Positions 1,920-11,495 of a DNA stretch of 54,499 nucleotides are shown in pieces; position 1 is the stretch's first letter, and every line of letters begins with the position of its first letter. This stretch comes from a virus, in the IMG/VR virus record IMGVR_UViG_3300028786_000010, positions 1 through 54,499 of that record; one strand, given 5' to 3'. The notes below the pieces were generated by a model. The model saw nothing but the letters and a program-made list of their open reading frames with translations, had not been told where the DNA came from and searched no databases. The translations under genes were made by a program, and so were the position numbers.

Positions 1920-4900
1920 TCAGGCCGAGTCGCGCCAGGCGAACGCGGGTTCGCTGGCTTCGGCGACGATCGGAATCCCGTACAACTCCCGGCTCATGCA
2001 GCGCACCAGCGTCTCGGTGGCCTCGGCGGCGTCCTGCTCCGGCACCATCGCCACGATCTCGTCATGGACGGGCAGGACCACACCGCCGCCCCACCGGGTC
2101 TTGTCCCAGTCGAGCAGTCCGTCCACGAGCAGCTCACGGGCGGTGCCCTGGATGCAAAAATTCGGTGATTTGTGGGGGTACTGCCGGTCCAGGTGGATGA
2201 TCCGGCCGGCGTAGGTGGGCATCTGAGTTGCGCCACCGCGTACGGCCCGTTTCACCTCATCGGCCCAACCCACGTAGCTGGGTGCGACCTGCTGCAGCGA
2301 CTCGATGATCGAAACCATGACCTGTTCGGGCACGCCGACCTGGCGGGCGAGGGACGCCGCGCCGCCGCCGTAGGCCCAGCCGAACACGCCCCGCTTGGCG
2401 GTGTAGCGGTGCGACTTGGTCCAATCCGGGCCGAAGGCCTTGCCGGCCACGATCGCGTGCAAGTCGTACCGGCTCTGCCATTCGCGCTTGGTCATCTGGC
2501 CCGACTCCACAAGCGCCTCGGCCTGCGTGCCCTCCATCAGCATGCGGATCAGGTCCGGGTCCTGACTCAGTGCGGCCATCACCCGGATCTCCACGCCGGA
2601 GAAGTCGGCGCTGATCAGTACATGGCCGGGGTCGGCGGTGATGCACGCGCGGACGCCGCCTTGGCGCGGGAGCTGCTGCAGGTTGGGCCGGACACAGGAC
2701 ATACGGCCCGTGTCGGTTCCGAGCGTGTAGACGGTGGGTCGGGCCCGGCCGTCGCCGCTCTCGCACAGCACCCTGTAGGGCTCCAGGAACGTGGTCAGCA
2801 CCGTCTCGTGGTGCCGGTACTCCAGGACAGCTGAAATCAGCCCACCGGCGGGCTCAGGAGTGTCACGGAGGCCCTCGAGCACACCGGCCGCCACGCTGGC
2901 CTGGCCGTCCGGGTGCCGTGTGCTCGGCGTGGTGCGGGGCAGCGTCACCCCGAGCTCCGAGAGCCGGTCGGCGAGCTGCCGGTCGCTGCCGGGGTTCTCC
3001 ACGCCGAACTGCCGGACCCTCTCGGCCGCGGCGAGCATGGCCGGGGTGTGCTCGTCCTGCAAGCGGCGCACCTGGTCGTGGTCGACTCGCACGCCGCGGT
3101 GAGTCACTCGCGCGGTGATCCGCTGGACGGCACGCTCGCGGCTGACCACCTCGGCCGGCGGCTGCGGTAGCCGGGTGGCCAGCGCCGCGGTGTCGAGCAC
3201 GTCACTTGCCGCGTAACGGATCATCGTGCTGCAGCTCGAGTCGACTTGCGCCCAGCCGGACCGCTCGAGCGGCGTGACGGCCTTGGTGTCGGTCAGCCAG
3301 CCGTTGACCTTGAACAGCGTGGCCCGCGCCTTGTCCGCCTCAGGTGCCGTTGCCGAGCCGTTCAGGACCGTCCCGGCGAGCTGCTTGAGGCCGGGATCCG
3401 AGCCTGTGCTCTGCGGGTCCGCCAGTTTGGCCGGGATCACCGTGTCATGCATCCGCTCCCATGCGGACTCATCAGTCAGCCCGGCGGCGGCCAGCGGCAC
3501 CAGGTCGGCTGTGGCCGAGTGGGCGTGCAGCACCGGAGCGCCGGCCAGCGCGGCCCTGATCACCTCAGCCTGATCCGGGTCGGCCGCGTCGAGCACCACC
3601 GCGGCCTGCTCGTCACCGAGCTGCACGGTCCGCAGCGCGTAGTCAGCGTGGCCCACCGGGTAGCCGGAGGTCTCCACATCGACCGTCAGCGCGCCCGATC
3701 GCGCTACAGCGGTGGCCACCTCGGCACCGGCCCGGACGGTGTCGATGGCCACGATGGCGCCGTCCCGGCCGACCAAGGCCGGAAGCGGCACCTGCTCGCC
3801 GGCGGCGGCCTGCCGAGCGGCCTCCTTCTCCGCTGCCTTCTGGGCCGCCTTGGTGTAACGCCCTGTAGCCGTGTTGGTCCGCCGAGCGGGCTTGGGGGCC
3901 GGTTCCGGTACGGGGAAGAGCCCGTCGGCGGGTGCCGGATCGCAGGCGGGTTCAGGCGGGTTTGCCGAACCCAACCCGCCTGGCGTGTTTACCGAGGTAG
4001 GGGCCTGTTTGTTGATAGGTCCCAGGCGGGTTGCGGGTTTGGCCGGTATTCCCCCCGTATTTTCTCTACTACTTACTTGTTGAGAATTTTTGTCTATCCC
4101 CCCAGTAAAACTATCTAAACCCGCCTGGGACCTATCAGAAAGTGCGCCCTGAGCTGGGGTTTCAGCCCCAGGCGGGTTTGCTCGGAAACCCGCCTGGAAC
4201 CCGCCTGAACCCGCCTGGAACCCGCCTGAACCCGCCTGGAACCCGCCTGAACCCGCCTGGGATCCACCCGGGAAGGTCATGAACTGCGCCAGGTTCGGCG
4301 GGGGTGACGAGGGTGCCCCGAACCCGCCGTTCAACACGGAGAGTGGCCGGTACTTGATTCCGGCGTGCGGCTGTACCGGGTACCCCAGCTCGGTCAGCCG
4401 GCGGCCGAACGCGGTCTCCGACGGCAGCGACAGGCGCCGGTAGCGGGGGTGGTCCTGGTGCCAGCGGGCGAACTGCTGGCTGTAGAGGATCCGGCCTGGT
4501 GTGCCCGGCTCAGTCGGCCCCGTGCACGTCTCGACCCACTCCTGGATCGGGTCCTGCCCCTCGGCGATCTCGTCGGCCAGCCCGCGGATGCTGACGGGGG
4601 CGGCGGAAGTGGCGGCGCTGTCCCGGTCGGCGAGGTATGCGGCGGCTTCGCGCATCATCGCGGCCAGGATGCCCGGCGCCTCGGCGATCAGGCTGTTGCC
4701 GAGCAACTGGAGCCGAAGCGGCCGGACGATCTCTTCCGGGGTGTCGCACGGAATCAGGCGTACACGGGCGCGCAGCGCGGGATCGGTCAGATTCGGCTCA
4801 GGGTTGGTCGTCATGACCAGGGTGTGGTTGGGCTTGAAGGTGACCGGGTTGGCGCGCATCGGCCGGCCGGTCAGCGAGCCGCCGCCGGTGAGCTGCTTGA

Positions 4901-6743
4901 GCCGCTCAGTGGCATCGTGCCCGCGTTTCGGGCCCTCGTCGATGAACGACAGCCGGCGGCCGCGCAGGTCGTAGATGATCGTGTCGTGTGAGCCGTCCTG
5001 CGCGCTGAGCAGCTTCGGGTTGGCGGCGTGCGCGTAGCTGCCGAGCACTTCGATCAGCATCTCGACCAGCGACGTTTTACCCGACCGTTCCCGCCCGTAC
5101 AGGATCGGCAGGGCCGCGTCCGGGTAGCCGGTCAGGGCGACCGACAGCACCCGCATCGCCCACGCCCGGACCTCCGGATCTGGCATCACCGCGGCCACGA
5201 ACGCGTCCCAGCGCGGCGTCGGCACGGTCGGGTTCGGTGCGCACAGAGCGGTACGCAGGTGCGGGGTATTGGGGTCGATCCACATCGCCGGCGTGGGAAT
5301 CTCCCCAGACGCGCGCAGGTCCCACGGGACGCCACCCGCCCACAGAACCTCGGGATTGGTGTCCAGGTCGGTGATACGCAGGGAGGCCGGGTGGTCACTG
5401 CGGATGATGGCCCGCAGCTTCCGCCCGACCTTCCCTGTCCCCTGGCTGCTCATGAACACCGCGCGCCGGGCCGCCTGCCAATGCAGCTCCGTACGCAACG
5501 AGGCGTCCTTGGGAACCGGGGTCTCACCCAGCGGCATCAGCTCGGCCAGCAGCGAGATGACCCAGTCGGACATGTCGTCGCCGCACTCTTCCCAGACGTT
5601 GCGCTCCCGCTTGATCCACAGCCCGGCGTCCTTGGCGTAGCGCAGCGCGGGATACATCCGGTACGCCACCGCCTTCGCCAGGCCCTGGTCAGAGGTGTCG
5701 CCGGCCGGGTCGAACGGGTCGACGCCCAGCGCGCTGAACACGCTCCAGGGCGGTTCAGCCGGAGGCTCGTCACCGGGCGGGGTCCCCTCACCCTCGCGGG
5801 CCACCGCCTGGGCCATCTCGGACTGGGTGCGTTCCTGCTCGGCGGTGAACACCCAGAACGGCCGGACGGCGCCGTCGTCTAGTCCCTGCTGGATCCACAG
5901 CAGGTCGTCGGTGTCCGGGCTGCCCCAGACGGCCGATACCGCCTTCTCGAGGCGCTCGCGAGCGTCCAGCTCGTCCAGATAGCCGCCGCCGACGTAGCCA
6001 CCAAGGGTCAGGGCAGCGCGCAGCAGCACCGTACGGAAGCCCACACCTGACCCCGTGGTCCAGGTGGCGACCTCGTTCAGTTTCCCTTCGATGGCCCTCT
6101 CGGCGGCCGGCGCGGACTGTGGCTCCCGCTGCGTCAGGAAGTCCTGCCACCACTGCGGACCGCCGACGCTGCGCACCGTCTCGGCGGACGCCCGCAGTTC
6201 CCGGATCCGGGCCGCCAGGTTCGCACCGGAGGTGTCCTGGCCGTTCAATCGGCTCAGGTCGGGGACCTGCACCCATCCGTACGGCACCGGCTCACCTGTG
6301 ACCGCGCTGACCCGCACGGTGGGCGCGATGAACGCGAATCCCCGACTCGACCCGTCCGGCACGCCGCCCTTGATGTCGACACCTGGGAGCACGTTGTCCC
6401 GGCTGCCGACACCGAGCGACGCGATGAACGCGTGTGCGCCGCCGGAAGGGGTCGCTGCCAGCCCGTAGAACCGGGGGGTCATCCCGTTCAGCACGGACGG
6501 ATCGCCGCCGTTGCGCGGGTCGAAGTCGACCAGGTCCAGCCCGCAGCCCATCACCGCGCACAGCGCCAGACCCGGACGCCACAGATCGACGACGGCCGGG
6601 TCCGGTGCAGTTCGCTCCCACCGCGGCGGCGGCCGGAATCCGGTCTTGGCGGTGCTGTCAGGATGCGCGATGAAGATCGGGATGCCGGACGTCGCGAGCC
6701 GGCGCGCGACGTCCAGAGCGGCAGCGATCTCTTCAGGGGTCAC
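1920..6743 (-). CDS. All-in-one replicase: Prim-Pol primase + SF3/D5 helicase + 3'-5' exonuclease + family A DNA polymerase
   Basis: 1607 aa in a single frame, starting at GTG 6743 (GTGA overlap with the upstream stop; AGGGGTG upstream). Residues 10-165 are an AEP/Prim-Pol domain with LVDFD (D73, D75), GGAH (H104) and DIKGG (123-127). Residues 340-800 are a D5/SF3-type helicase: Walker A GRERSGKTS (550-558), Walker B LSFIDEG (598-604), sensor MTTNPEPN and a following arginine-rich segment. Residues 824-985 are a low-complexity linker (SGGFQAG repeats, then Pro/Lys-rich). Residues 1015-1195 are a DnaQ-like exonuclease with DVE (D1022, E1024), D1080 and YAASD (D1181). Residues 1200-1607 are a PolA-type polymerase: motif A SADFSGVEIR (D1380), O-helix around K1450-Y1458, motif C PVHDE (H1560, D1561). 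All catalytic residues are present, so both synthesis and proofreading are expected. These functions are normally encoded by separate phage genes. Confidence 0.93.
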   Translation of the reverse strand: MTPEEIAAALDVARRLATSGIPIFIAHPDSTAKTGFRPPPRWERTAPDPAVVDLWRPGLALCAVMGCGLDLVDFDPRNGGDPSVLNGMTPRFYGLAATPSGGAHAFIASLGVGSRDNVLPGVDIKGGVPDGSSRGFAFIAPTVRVSAVTGEPVPYGWVQVPDLSRLNGQDTSGANLAARIRELRASAETVRSVGGPQWWQDFLTQREPQSAPAAERAIEGKLNEVATWTTGSGVGFRTVLLRAALTLGGYVGGGYLDELDARERLEKAVSAVWGSPDTDDLLWIQQGLDDGAVRPFWVFTAEQERTQSEMAQAVAREGEGTPPGDEPPAEPPWSVFSALGVDPFDPAGDTSDQGLAKAVAYRMYPALRYAKDAGLWIKRERNVWEECGDDMSDWVISLLAELMPLGETPVPKDASLRTELHWQAARRAVFMSSQGTGKVGRKLRAIIRSDHPASLRITDLDTNPEVLWAGGVPWDLRASGEIPTPAMWIDPNTPHLRTALCAPNPTVPTPRWDAFVAAVMPDPEVRAWAMRVLSVALTGYPDAALPILYGRERSGKTSLVEMLIEVLGSYAHAANPKLLSAQDGSHDTIIYDLRGRRLSFIDEGPKRGHDATERLKQLTGGGSLTGRPMRANPVTFKPNHTLVMTTNPEPNLTDPALRARVRLIPCDTPEEIVRPLRLQLLGNSLIAEAPGILAAMMREAAAYLADRDSAATSAAPVSIRGLADEIAEGQDPIQEWVETCTGPTEPGTPGRILYSQQFARWHQDHPRYRRLSLPSETAFGRRLTELGYPVQPHAGIKYRPLSVLNGGFGAPSSPPPNLAQFMTFPGGSQAGSGGFQAGSGGFQAGSGGFQAGFRANPPGAETPAQGALSDRSQAGLDSFTGGIDKNSQQVSSRENTGGIPAKPATRLGPINKQAPTSVNTPGGLGSANPPEPACDPAPADGLFPVPEPAPKPARRTNTATGRYTKAAQKAAEKEAARQAAAGEQVPLPALVGRDGAIVAIDTVRAGAEVATAVARSGALTVDVETSGYPVGHADYALRTVQLGDEQAAVVLDAADPDQAEVIRAALAGAPVLHAHSATADLVPLAAAGLTDESAWERMHDTVIPAKLADPQSTGSDPGLKQLAGTVLNGSATAPEADKARATLFKVNGWLTDTKAVTPLERSGWAQVDSSCSTMIRYAASDVLDTAALATRLPQPPAEVVSRERAVQRITARVTHRGVRVDHDQVRRLQDEHTPAMLAAAERVRQFGVENPGSDRQLADRLSELGVTLPRTTPSTRHPDGQASVAAGVLEGLRDTPEPAGGLISAVLEYRHHETVLTTFLEPYRVLCESGDGRARPTVYTLGTDTGRMSCVRPNLQQLPRQGGVRACITADPGHVLISADFSGVEIRVMAALSQDPDLIRMLMEGTQAEALVESGQMTKREWQSRYDLHAIVAGKAFGPDWTKSHRYTAKRGVFGWAYGGGAASLARQVGVPEQVMVSIIESLQQVAPSYVGWADEVKRAVRGGATQMPTYAGRIIHLDRQYPHKSPNFCIQGTARELLVDGLLDWDKTRWGGGVVLPVHDEIVAMVPEQDAAEATETLVRCMSRELYGIPIVAEASEPAFAWRDSA
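4013..4137. repeat. Perfect 20-bp inverted repeat flanking the AT-rich core
   Basis: The left arm 4013-4032 reads TGATAGGTCCCAGGCGGGTT and the right arm 4118-4137 is its exact reverse complement. The 85 bp between them are poor in G and rich in A/T, notably around 4053-4117. Each arm contains one copy of the 10-mer iteron. Confidence 0.85.
4168..4197. repeat. Perfect 12-bp palindromic hairpin built from two iterons
   Basis: CCAGGCGGGTTT (4168-4179) is followed by a 6-base loop and its exact complement AAACCCGCCTGG (4186-4197). It joins the inverted-repeat part of the origin region to the tandem array. Confidence 0.8.
4187..4259. repeat. Tandem iteron array, 7 copies with 10/11-bp spacing
   Basis: AACCCGCCTG starts at 4187, 4198, 4208, 4219, 4229, 4240 and 4250. 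Spacings alternate 11 and 10 bp, so the mean is 10.5 bp, one DNA helical turn, which puts every copy on the same face. The unit is also 21 bp, so it stays in frame and encodes SGGFQAG repeats in the replicase linker. Confidence 0.9.
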
Positions 6744-7886: not shown

Positions 7887-9668
7887 CTAGCTGACCTTTC
7901 GTAGGGTTGACCCGCCGAGCAGTTCGCTGACGATCCGCTTGTCCTGCAACAGATCGGCAAGCTGCCCGGCCTTCTCGTGGAGCACGGCACGGATGCGCGT
8001 GTCGATGGTCTTGGCGGCCACCACGTCGATGACCTCGATGGAGTCGTGGATCTCGCTGCCGATGCGGTGACAGCGGTCCTCCGCCTGCGAGGCCTCTACG
8101 AGCGACCACGGACGCTGGAGGAACACCACAGTCCGCGCGGCGGTCAGGGTGAGCCCAACCCCGCCGGCGCCGGTGGTGACACAGAGCAGGTCGAACTTGC
8201 CGCGCTGGAACGCCTCGACCGTGTCGGTGCGCTCCCGCATGGACTGCCCGCCGACGACGTAGCCGACCTGGTGCCCGGCCTTGGTGGCCAGCTCGCCGGC
8301 CAGCATCATCAGCTGACGGCTCGGCGCGAACGTGACGACGGGCTCGCCCGGCCGCTCGGCCAGCACCTCGAGCAGCGCGTCGACCTTCCACGACGGAGCC
8401 TTCAGTCGCACCTCGACGTGCTCGCGGTCCTCGCCATTCTCGTCCCGTTCGGTGGTGACGCTGATGTCGGCCGCGGCGCTGGCCAGCTGGTTCAGCCGGG
8501 TCAACTGGGCCAGCACCGACATGACCGACAGCTCCTGCCCGTCGGGCAGTTGGGCGATCATCTGGTTTTCGAGCTCGTCGTACGCCTTGCGGTACGCGGT
8601 CGGTAGCTCGACCGTGCGCATGCTGTAGACCTTGGGCGGCAGCTGAGACAACACATCGGCCTTGGCGACCCGCCGGTGCTGGCCGAGCAGCGTGGTGCGC
8701 ATCTCCCGCTCGGTGGCCATGTTCAGGCCGATGACTTTGGCGCTGTAGTCGCCGGGGATCGTCTGGCAGTAGCGGGCCTTCCAGCGCTCCCCGGACGGCC
8801 ATGCCAGCGGCGCCAGGGCTTCCAGGGTGGGCCAGAGGTCGCCGGGGTGATGCGTGATCGGCGTGCCGGACAGCGCGACGAAGTTGTCCGCTCGCTTGGC
8901 CAGGCGCCGGGCGGCCATCGACCTGGCCGAGTGCGGGGTCTTGATCAGGTGGCACTCGTCTACGACCAGCGATCGCGGAGCCACCCGGGCCAGTGGCCCA
9001 CCCTTGGCCGAGTCCCGGGCCGCAGTCTCGTAGCTGGAGACAAGTACATGCGCCTGGCTGCCCTCAGGACGGTCTGCGAGGCGCCGTCGGTGCTCCGGAC
9101 TACCGCTCCAGGCGTTTACACGCCAGCCGGGCGCCCAGGTCTGCACCGCGGTCACCCAGGGGTCGACGACAGATCTCGGCGCGATGACGACCGTCGGAGT
9201 GACTTCGTACCCCTGGGCCGCGCGCTCGAGCAGACCGAGGATCGTGGTGATCGTTTTTCCGGTTCCGGGCTCGTCGAACAGCAACGCCCGGCCGAGCGCC
9301 CCGATCATCAGCGCGCCGTCCACCTGGTACGGCCGGGGTGTCAGGCCCTCCGGCAGTTCGATGGTCAGCGCGCCGCCGGACGGGGTACGTAGCACCGTCT
9401 CGGTCATCAGCCACTGCGTCAGCCGCGGCCCCGGCCGCCACGCCGCGCCGAACAGGCTTGCCAGCTGCACCACGGCCGCCCAGGTCGCCGGCAGCAGCAG
9501 CGCGCCGGGCGGGTCGCTGGGCTTGATCAGCGGCGTCATGAGCTGGATCCGCGCGGCCATCTGCGCGATGGCGTAGTCCGTACCGGTGCCGATGAGCACG
9601 ATGGTCTTGCCGTCGGCCGTGAGCTCGCCGTTCAGGACGGCCGGAGGCGCGTCATTCGTAGTGATCAC
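7887..9668 (-). CDS. SNF2-family DEAD/DEAH-type helicase
   Basis: 593 aa from GTG 9668, preceded by GGAGGTGCCCA. Walker A is DEPGTGKT (132-139) and motif II is DECH (237-240), followed by ALSGTPI (motif III). The C-terminal RecA lobe carries TTGAGGVGLTLT (motif V) and EDRCHRIGS (motif VI, QxxxRxxR type). The shape is that of the compact SNF2 proteins common in siphophage replication clusters, which translocate on duplex DNA without strand separation (family knowledge). It overlaps neither neighbour but is one base from the RuvC-like start. Confidence 0.9.
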   Translation of the reverse strand: MITTNDAPPAVLNGELTADGKTIVLIGTGTDYAIAQMAARIQLMTPLIKPSDPPGALLLPATWAAVVQLASLFGAAWRPGPRLTQWLMTETVLRTPSGGALTIELPEGLTPRPYQVDGALMIGALGRALLFDEPGTGKTITTILGLLERAAQGYEVTPTVVIAPRSVVDPWVTAVQTWAPGWRVNAWSGSPEHRRRLADRPEGSQAHVLVSSYETAARDSAKGGPLARVAPRSLVVDECHLIKTPHSARSMAARRLAKRADNFVALSGTPITHHPGDLWPTLEALAPLAWPSGERWKARYCQTIPGDYSAKVIGLNMATEREMRTTLLGQHRRVAKADVLSQLPPKVYSMRTVELPTAYRKAYDELENQMIAQLPDGQELSVMSVLAQLTRLNQLASAAADISVTTERDENGEDREHVEVRLKAPSWKVDALLEVLAERPGEPVVTFAPSRQLMMLAGELATKAGHQVGYVVGGQSMRERTDTVEAFQRGKFDLLCVTTGAGGVGLTLTAARTVVFLQRPWSLVEASQAEDRCHRIGSEIHDSIEVIDVVAAKTIDTRIRAVLHEKAGQLADLLQDKRIVSELLGGSTLRKVS

Positions 9669-9712
9669 TGGGCACCTCCGATTCGAGTTGGTTAGGTCTG
9701 ATCGGGTGCTGC

Positions 9713-9748
9713 CCGGCCCGGGCGCCGGGGAAGGCACGTCCGGGCCGG
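9713..9748. terminator. Perfect 9-bp hairpin downstream of the SSB-like gene
   Basis: CCGGCCCGG (9713-9721) pairs with CCGGGCCGG (9740-9748), loop 18 bases, in the 92-bp gap between the SSB-like stop and the SNF2 start. There is no U-run. It may protect the 3' end of the SSB message or reduce read-through to the helicase. Confidence 0.45.
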
Positions 9749-9760
9749 ACAGTCACCGGA

Positions 9761-10681
9761 TCAGCTGGGCTGGCCGGTGAGCTTGGCGAACAGCGCGGCC
9801 TGCTCCGCGTTGAATCCGGCCGGAGCGGCGCTGACCGGTGCCGCCTGCTGCGGCTGAGGCGCCGGAGCAGGGGCCGCGGCCGGAGCGGGCTGAGGCTGCG
9901 GTGCGGCCTGCGGCGCCACCGGTTGCGGCATGGGCTGCTGCTGGTACACCGGCTGAGCCTGCGGAGCGGGTGGCACCGCCTGCTGGTGCACGACCGGCTG
10001 ACCGTTGGCCGTGGACATCACCGGCGCGGACTGCGGCTGTGCGGTGGTTTGGCCCGCACCCTGCGGCCGGGCGTACTCGACCCGGTAGACGTACGCCGGG
10101 TTGAATCCCCCCGGCACCGGCCGCGTGGCGACCAACGTGACACGGATCCACGCGCCGCCCTCGGGTGCCCCCGCTGGAGCGCCCGCTTCGGACATGGCCC
10201 GTGCCAGGTCGTCGCGGGCCTGCCCCTTGCACCACCAGCCGGCCTGACCGTCGGGCAGTTCCTGCGAGGGCTGGCACAGCATCGGCACGACCATGACGAA
10301 CTTCGGCCGGCCGTCCTTGTAGGTCTGGACCCGTCCGTCCCGGTCGGTCTGCGCGCGGACATCGGCGTCCGTGAGCGGCCGGGCCACGAAGCCCTCGTAG
10401 AAGGTGCCAAGGGGCTTGTCCTTGAACTTCCATGACGGGCCGCCACTGCTGCTCGGCTGCTGGTAGAAGCTGTCCAGCGACCCGGTCGGCAGTGGCGGGG
10501 CCGGAGGAGCAGGCGGGGCGTACTGCTGCGGGTAGGCCTGCGGGTAACCCTGCTGCGGCATCGGCGGGGCGTAGGCCTGGGGCTGCTGGGGGTAGCCCTG
10601 CGGCTGCTGCGGATAGGCCGGCTGCGGGTAGGTCTGCGGCTGCTGCGGGTACTGCGGCGCCGTCGGGTACTGAGGCTGCAT
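9761..10681 (-). CDS. Putative single-stranded DNA-binding protein with low-complexity Pro/Gln arms
   Basis: 306 aa; the ATG at 10681 has AAGGAGAACC in good position. The first ~70 residues are YPQQPQ-type repeats, and residues ~210-295 are Pro/Gln/Ala-rich. Between them lies a folded domain (KFKDKPLGTFYEGFVARPLT, RPKFVMVVPMLCQ, AWIRVTLVAT) that resembles OB-fold phage SSB proteins. The C-terminus ends in a short conserved-looking tail (AEQAALFAKLTGQPS). Position between a Cas4-like nuclease and a helicase supports an SSB role. The two disordered arms are unusually long. Confidence 0.6.
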   Translation of the reverse strand: MQPQYPTAPQYPQQPQTYPQPAYPQQPQGYPQQPQAYAPPMPQQGYPQAYPQQYAPPAPPAPPLPTGSLDSFYQQPSSSGGPSWKFKDKPLGTFYEGFVARPLTDADVRAQTDRDGRVQTYKDGRPKFVMVVPMLCQPSQELPDGQAGWWCKGQARDDLARAMSEAGAPAGAPEGGAWIRVTLVATRPVPGGFNPAYVYRVEYARPQGAGQTTAQPQSAPVMSTANGQPVVHQQAVPPAPQAQPVYQQQPMPQPVAPQAAPQPQPAPAAAPAPAPQPQQAAPVSAAPAGFNAEQAALFAKLTGQPS

Positions 10682-10694
10682 TTCTTGGTTCTCC

Positions 10695-11495
10695 TTAGTT
10701 GGTGGGCCCGGGACATCCGGGTCCGTTGTCGCGCTTTGACTGGGGTCGATAGAAGGGGCAGAAATAACACTCGTCATCGTCAGCGGCAGTGGGAATGTCA
10801 GTGAATGTCTTCAGTCCGGAAATGAGTTCTTCTGCCATGGCCTTGCGTCGGTCGGTGAGCCTGAATACCTCCTCGATGAGCGCGTCGTCCTGCGGCCCCG
10901 TGGCTCGTTCCCAGACATAGAGCCCGTCCAGGCTGGCCGCGGTGCGGGGGTAGGCAGCCAGCGCGACGCGCGTCACCGGCAGCCCCATGACCCGGAACCC
11001 CTTGCCGTAGAGCAAGAGCTGAATGACGTATTTGATCGGTGGACCGCTGGCGCTGCGGATTTTTGCCATCGACGATTCGGCCAACACCTTGTGATCGACG
11101 ACGGCCGTTTCTTCCGCGTCGTAAAGGTCGCCCGTTCCGGAATGGTCGGGGTGCGGAACCACTCGTTGTTCGGCGAGCCACCGGGCCCGGCCGTGGCGGA
11201 CGTTGTCCGCGGTGAACGCGTCCGCCAGCCAGGCGTGCACCGCCGTTCCGACCACGGATGGCCACGGATCGGCCACATGGTTGGTGACCGGCAGCCCGGC
11301 CAGCTTGCCCACCACCTGCCGGTCGCACGGCACGCCCAGCTCACTCGGGCCGAGGTGCCGTTGCAGCGTCCGGGCCGAGCCGTTGGCCTGCTCGTGCACC
11401 ACCCGGCGCAGCTCGCCCGCGTACCGGGACGCCCAGGCGGTGTTGCCCTCCAGGCGTGCCGGCGCCGCGCTCATGAAGTCGGCCACGCTGGTCAC
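10695..11495 (-). CDS. Cas4/RecB-like PD-(D/E)XK exonuclease with probable Fe-S cluster
   Basis: 266 aa from GTG 11495 (GTGA overlap). Nuclease residues: H87 in GTAVHAWL, D123 in GTGDLYD, D134 and K136 in VVDHKV, and Q158 in IQLLLYG. Cysteines C57, C243, C246 and C261 match the one-plus-three pattern that holds a 4Fe-4S cluster in Cas4 and AddB. Phage members process DNA ends during recombination (family knowledge). No CRISPR array or other cas gene is present in the window, so a CRISPR role is not indicated. Confidence 0.82.
   Translation of the reverse strand: MTSVADFMSAAPARLEGNTAWASRYAGELRRVVHEQANGSARTLQRHLGPSELGVPCDRQVVGKLAGLPVTNHVADPWPSVVGTAVHAWLADAFTADNVRHGRARWLAEQRVVPHPDHSGTGDLYDAEETAVVDHKVLAESSMAKIRSASGPPIKYVIQLLLYGKGFRVMGLPVTRVALAAYPRTAASLDGLYVWERATGPQDDALIEEVFRLTDRRKAMAEELISGLKTFTDIPTAADDDECYFCPFYRPQSKRDNGPGCPGPTN

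Follow-up and report, generated by a model that had tools for sequence, protein, structure and literature searches.

The replicase gene of the phage analysed here encodes, with a probability that we put at roughly 80%, an initiator-replicase that reads an iteron replication origin situated in the linker of its own gene. Nearly as probable, in our estimate, is the broader reading of a widespread actinobacterial replicase which combines initiator, helicase, primase, proofreader and polymerase, carries its own origin in the linker, and recognises it by a wing code that gives rise to private lineage origins. The repeat array in the linker was absent from the observations of the first-pass annotation of this DNA, which had highlighted the fusion of the replication domains. 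Of the two, the intragenic array, with its origin-like features and its coevolution, has the greater novelty.

The window, i.e., the whole stretch of DNA under analysis, is a 54.5-kb virus record (IMGVR_UViG_3300028786_000010). It carries integrase, terminase, portal, major head, and tape-measure genes and therefore represents a temperate tailed phage, for which a temperate actinobacterial siphophage is the best explanation. Its relatives in isolate genomes are actinobacterial prophages (Micromonospora zingiberis, Nocardioides, Labedaea rhizosphaerae), and a search with the first 25 kb of the window revealed no near DNA relative among cultivated phages. The replicase ORF occupies positions 1920..6743 on the minus strand and codes for 1607 aa from a GTG start, which overlaps the stop codon of the upstream ORF (GTGA). 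The first-pass annotation had described this open frame correctly, omitting its strand. The same minus-strand gene run includes an SNF2-type helicase (7887-9737), a 338-aa Pro/Gln-rich protein with a repeat tract (9761-10777; phrog_1911, unknown function), and a PHROG exonuclease (10695-11495).

A single polypeptide with the predicted domain order PrimPol – D5/SF3 helicase – winged helix – linker – 3'-5' exonuclease – PolA is well supported. Its parts, from the N-terminus onwards, are:

5844..6743, minus strand: PrimPol (AEP) domain, residues ~1-300 (PHROG 1156; PF09250 in two of ten close homologues; invariant residues)
5187..5663, minus strand: D5_N domain, residues 361-519 (Pfam E 9e-4, slightly below the cut-off)
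4791..5102, minus strand: SF3 helicase core (DUF5906), residues 548-651 (Pfam 9e-9; profile match to ASFV C962R)
4335..4505, minus strand: winged helix ending the helicase, residues 747-803 (secondary structure of the model; weak PF03288)
4353..4376, minus strand: wing VQPHAGIK, residues 790-797 (residues 792, 794, and 797 covary with iteron bases 7, 10, and 6)
3819..4334, minus strand: interdomain linker, residues 804-975, protein tether and DNA element (open frame, drop in GC3)
3168..3746, minus strand: 3'-5' exonuclease (DNA_pol_A_exo1), residues 1000-1192 (Pfam 2e-5; model)
1962..3053, minus strand: family A DNA polymerase (DNA_pol_A), residues 1231-1594 (Pfam 6e-45; fold match)

For the exonuclease–polymerase half, matches to PF00476 and PF01612 were found together with a confident PolA fold (model pLDDT 91.7, pTM 0.88), which is closest to phage G20c Pol I and phiVC8 DpoZ. 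The model of the N-terminal half is of moderate confidence only (pLDDT 76, pTM 0.44); profile and fold searches returned ASFV C962R PrimPol and poxvirus D5 as best matches. These proteins likewise combine a PrimPol with a D5-type SF3 helicase but, to our knowledge, have no fused polymerase, and we know of no iteron origin in their genes. PHROG 1156 ('DNA primase') matches residues 11-789 of the window protein (2e-53). In Pfam, the N-terminus of the window protein itself gave no Prim-Pol match; PF09250 was detected in the two close homologues listed above (best 4.6e-9) and in 21 of 28 fused relatives, mostly those with the other type of N-terminus. The putative PrimPol residues D73/D75, H104, and D123 are invariant in ten homologues, and the PrimPol assignment is supported by the combination of PHROG 1156, PF09250, and these residues. 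An SF3 core with a C-terminal winged helix is present, the latter being derived from the model and from weak matches of PF03288 (Pox_D5) to this region in two of 28 relatives. Invariant among the fused homologues are also the putative residues of the helicase (Walker A K556, Walker B D602/E603, N647), the exonuclease (D1022/E1024/D1080/D1181), and the polymerase (D1380/K1450/D1561/E1562). This invariance agrees with the earlier statement that the predicted catalytic residues of all four domains are intact, and the joint occurrence of Prim-Pol, SF3/D5, DnaQ-like exonuclease, and PolA in one frame was recovered by means of Pfam, PHROG 1156, and the contigs described below.

Across the fused family, two types of PrimPol N-terminus (residues 1-320) are placed on one common helicase–PolA body. 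The two types show no mutual similarity by BLASTP or profile–profile comparison, and a PDB sequence search with each type alone retrieved no relative. Furthermore, the window PolA contains about 21 extra residues, TQAEALVESGQMTKREWQSRY, at positions ~1406-1426 between conserved blocks, which are missing from its closest relatives.

The same single-frame fusion occurs in about 50 distinct contigs at 28-86% identity, including prophages of Micromonospora, Nocardioides, and Labedaea isolates. In the first search round, 36 of 43 rows showed it as one ORF, and 21 further contigs did so as well, all from IMG/VR and isolate genomes; counts of distinct contigs are approximate, as some rows represent one contig under two ids and the collections are metagenome-heavy. 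Among 399 sampled genomes from the order of the Micromonospora host, four match the N-terminal half over its full length, the open frames measuring 1568-1988 aa. In 40 linkers, picked because both domains share one frame, the fused frame contains no stop codon and each of the other frames contains 114-206. Only L092 and L099, of the later-fetched loci whose contigs enclose both domains, have the polymerase in a different frame; L092 keeps its iterons and an open linker, and its frame break is therefore located further downstream. In three loci (L031, L089, and L094), the fused ORF is 1855-2004 aa long and its polymerase region includes a large additional segment, possibly an intein or other insert.

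As the window comes from an uncultivated virus, a fused frame created by sequencing or assembly would be conceivable. However, recurrence of the identical frame in about 50 contigs at the identities given above, isolate genomes included, leaves such an artefact a negligible probability, and we reject it. Likewise, a frame split by a sequencing error is excluded for the family. The search for fused homologues proposed along with the first-pass annotation found them in IMG/VR and isolate genomes, while in 50,697 phage records there was no case of 80% of the replicase being covered in one place. The plasmid collection yielded nothing beyond partial matches of 22-28% identity to less than half of the protein. 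In the best-matching cultivated phages, those of Microbacterium, Curtobacterium, and Arthrobacter, the gene order is the same, with 27-30% identity to both halves, but primase/helicase and PolA are encoded by separate adjacent genes.

Fused replicases have precedents. In hot-spring viruses, OS3173 Pol unites primase/helicase, exonuclease, and PolA in a polyprotein of 1606 aa; like the window gene, OS3173 Pol and the TOSV 'Pyrovirus' PolA polyprotein consist of one ORF with N-terminal primase/helicase motifs, a 3'-5' exonuclease, and PolA, and their relatives exist both fused and unfused (PMC7689252, in its accessible parts). They differ in belonging to Aquificae hot-spring viruses and in a DUF927-type helicase region, with the N-terminal halves compared by description only; the accessible parts of PMC7689252 mention neither an iteron array nor an intragenic origin. 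GP55 of the lactococcal phage 1706 is, according to the accessible parts of PMC12205980, a biochemically shown SF3 helicase-AEP-PolB four-in-one replicase. It has in common with the window protein, whose activities are read from sequence, an SF3 helicase, an AEP primase, an exonuclease, and a polymerase in one polypeptide. In contrast to the window protein, GP55 has a family B polymerase, a helicase in first position, and a different helper domain, and the same parts of that source mention no internal origin. Because both systems came earlier, the fused-replicase concept is not new. The interpretation given in the first-pass annotation consequently holds, at the level of sequence, for one four-domain polypeptide, but not for the suggested new replicase class: the fusion is a new actinobacterial branch of fused replicases.

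The linker DNA that connects helicase and exonuclease contains the following elements:

3943..4259, both strands: iteron array of 13 exact AACCCGCCTG decamers (exact-copy count)
3973, 4118, 4187, 4198, 4208, 4219, 4229, 4240, and 4250, plus strand: AACCCGCCTG copies
3943, 3953, 4023, and 4169, minus strand: AACCCGCCTG copies
4023..4207, both strands: core iterons with conserved spacing (4198, 4187, 4169, 4118, and 4023)
4033..4117, between core iterons: AT-rich segment of 44% GC, candidate unwinding element

The 13 decamers span 317 bp, and their copies fall into several frames. The 54.5-kb window contains no further exact copy of AACCCGCCTG and three more with one mismatch; elsewhere in the window, among the 500-bp stretches listed, none exceeds four copies of any 8-mer. 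The array directly follows the helicase coding sequence, such that iterons and AT-rich region both lie within the putative initiator gene. At the protein level, the linker comprises about 170 residues of low complexity that are variable among relatives. Third-position GC, at 0.90 in the helicase, drops to 0.63 in the linker, and the AT-rich segment averages 55% GC versus 70% in the loci compared.

Relatives carry a decamer of their own at the same place, e.g., AACTGTCCTG, AACCCTCCAG, AACCCGTCAC/T/G, AACCCTTCAC, AACTGGTCAC, or AACCCGACAC, among others. The layout starts with two decamers in the same orientation (~11 bp), followed after ~18 bp by one in the opposite orientation, after ~50 bp by a pair in the first orientation (8-9 bp), and after ~80 bp by another opposite one. 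Despite their differing decamers, 32 of 34 loci recognisably show this layout, with gaps of 10-12, 17-19, 48-52, 8-9, and ~70-95 bp; since these decamers had been found in those very sequences, the layout table is a description and not a test. A few exceptions concern single gaps, for instance 61-62 bp in L031 and L012, or the window, which lacks one second pair member. In L016, L030, L060, and L061 the iterons are weak or degenerate. Three further loci (L037, L038, and L043) contain the same PolA half in a long ORF whose N-terminal half gave no match to the helicase queries at 1e-5; L043 nonetheless shows CTGCACCC repeats at core spacing.

At the first glance, the repeats might seem to lack any function as DNA and to reflect a protein linker of low complexity or an expanded microsatellite, as in the window a 21-bp tandem array of 3.5 copies encodes a repeated peptide. 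Yet the copies lie on both strands and in several frames, and their spacing is kept across loci whose decamers differ. Shuffling of synonymous codons, which keeps the protein, produced at most 3-8 copies of any 8-mer as compared to 5-14 observed, with the observed number above the maximum in every tabled locus; as any 8-mer is scored, this result is free of decamer choice. Finally, the decamer covaries with residues of the wing. The chance that the array is a plain repeat is thus practically nil, and this explanation is rejected as refuted by the following coevolution tests.

In 27 loci, we tested the variable iteron bases 6, 7, and 10 for association with each of the ~1050 variable columns in the fused protein. 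The top-associated columns are residue 797 for base 6, residue 792 for base 7 (here residue 497 equals 792 in z-score, with about half the information), and residue 794 for base 10. According to the model, all three residues reside within one eight-residue wing hairpin of the winged helix. Base 6 is paired as K/W with G and mostly N with T, base 7 as H with T and mostly K/R with C, and base 10 as K/R with C, E or A with G, and M with T. The rule is broken by L002 at base 6 and by L072 and L090 in the out-of-sample test described below, and P792 of the window is not among the usual partners of C7. A comparison of whole-helicase distance windows with iteron distance gave a weak and unspecific signal (partial r <= 0.28), and the per-column test was used instead.

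The pattern was first noticed by eye in the same loci, and an out-of-sample test hence carries more weight. Rules taken from the first 27 loci predicted 32 of 34 bases correctly on later-fetched contigs (20,000 shuffles: mean 19, maximum 31), where the search was limited to CCNNCAN, loci were excluded if they had no clear winner or no recognisable wing, and wings and motifs of the new contigs had already been seen when the test was written. As the shuffles ignore relatedness, a tree-aware test was added, in which independent pairs were compared on a tree built without the winged helix. Pairs changed in the same direction in 7.3 of 8, 7.0 of 8, and 5.9 of 7 cases, and never the other way round (median p of the sign tests 0.016, 0.016, and 0.031). 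Individual loci illustrate the correspondence. L010 and L027 have near-identical helicases, while the wing changes from SVHTKNGK to AMRTKYGN and the decamer from AACCCGTCAC to AACCCTCCAC. L181, an isolate genome found later, combines the wing AMKRRHGH with nine copies of CCCTGCAC, and L026 is alike, with a similar wing. Taken as a whole, the covariation strongly supports recognition of the iterons by the winged helix of the very helicase whose gene contains them.

Based on these findings, we propose a mechanism in three steps. First, residues 792, 794, and 797 of the wing would read the decamer, which is strongly supported by coevolution. Second, by analogy to SaPI Rep/Cch2 and lambda O, protomers would assemble on the array, the AT-rich segment would melt, and SF3 rings would be loaded. 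Third, as suggested by the conserved catalytic residues, the PrimPol would prime and the tethered PolA would extend with proofreading. Initiator, helicase, and polymerase would form one chain, with the origin inside its gene. That the array serves as replication origin is inferred from the iteron layout, the AT-rich segment, and the precedent of SaPI Rep/Cch2 and ori-lambda.

Alternatively, the winged helix may bind the iterons as a regulatory or copy-control site, e.g., for autorepression, incompatibility, or partition, with replication starting elsewhere. Coevolution proves recognition only and not origin function, the GC-skew table of the window shows no clear switch at the array and thus no origin signal, and iteron arrays of plasmids serve copy control, too. 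However, the array is the sole such cluster in the window, its iterons and AT-rich segment are arranged in a constant pattern over both strands, and its position directly after the helicase coding sequence resembles that of the SaPI Rep and Cch2 origins. On balance, we consider a purely regulatory site improbable.

Among the systems with comparable iterons, lambda O is devoid of enzymatic domains and recruits the host replisome, whereas the initiator of the window would itself be helicase, primase, and polymerase. Both have iterons within the initiator's own gene, ori-lambda being located in the middle of gene O (PMC3985674) and the array of the window being a presumed origin. In the case of SaPI Rep and the D5-family Cch2 of SCCmec, the C-terminal domain binds iterons just 3' of the helicase gene (PMC7581432). 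This corresponds to the window, where short iterons directly follow the coding sequence of an initiator helicase that putatively binds them, but for SaPI Rep and Cch2 the origin lies between genes, the helicase stands as a protein of its own, and no polymerase is fused to it. Because PolA is fused behind the helicase in the window, a site just downstream of the helicase falls inside the frame.

A likely history would be that an origin just 3' of a D5-type helicase gene was engulfed by the in-frame fusion of the next gene, polA. In the unfused Microbacterium, Arthrobacter, and Curtobacterium phages, a search for 8-mers and for the family pattern CCNNCAN revealed no array near the primase/polA junction, which leaves the proposed history tentative. 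A distant D5-type helicase ORF of 28% identity without PolA match harbours nine in-frame AACCCTACAT-like repeats (L105:2475-2811). Iterons inside a non-PolA helicase frame indicate that intragenic iterons may predate the PolA fusion.

The replicase may also act in parts. PolA could be freed by proteolysis, as in PfPREX, or arise from an internal start, and the replisome would then consist of two proteins. In favour of this, the linker is long, of low complexity, and variable, related phages have separate genes, and PfPREX is processed (PMC7689252, in its accessible parts). On the other hand, the linker frame is open in all fused loci, and the linkers contain no conserved internal PolA start with a strong Shine-Dalgarno sequence; the scattered Shine-Dalgarno-like matches of some relatives mostly represent the iteron's own GGAGG. 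We regard expression as two proteins as a minor, albeit real, possibility. It is compatible with the proposed intragenic origin, a reading that survives either way.

In the open-access literature, no intragenic iteron origin in a fused replicase was found, where a description in a subscription journal may be missed. The linker would constitute a clear case of dual coding, maintained both as an open frame and as spaced protein-binding DNA. If our main reading is true, the phage possesses a nearly self-contained replicon, in which one gene provides the start site and the main enzymes of the fork, and which would lend itself to orthogonal or cell-free DNA replication and to questions concerning minimal replisomes. 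The pairs of wing and iteron yield a specificity code for D5-type initiators that is open to direct testing, and hence also one for origin incompatibility between related prophages. Under such an amino-acid-to-base code, initiator and origin would drift together, giving rise to phage lineages with private origins.
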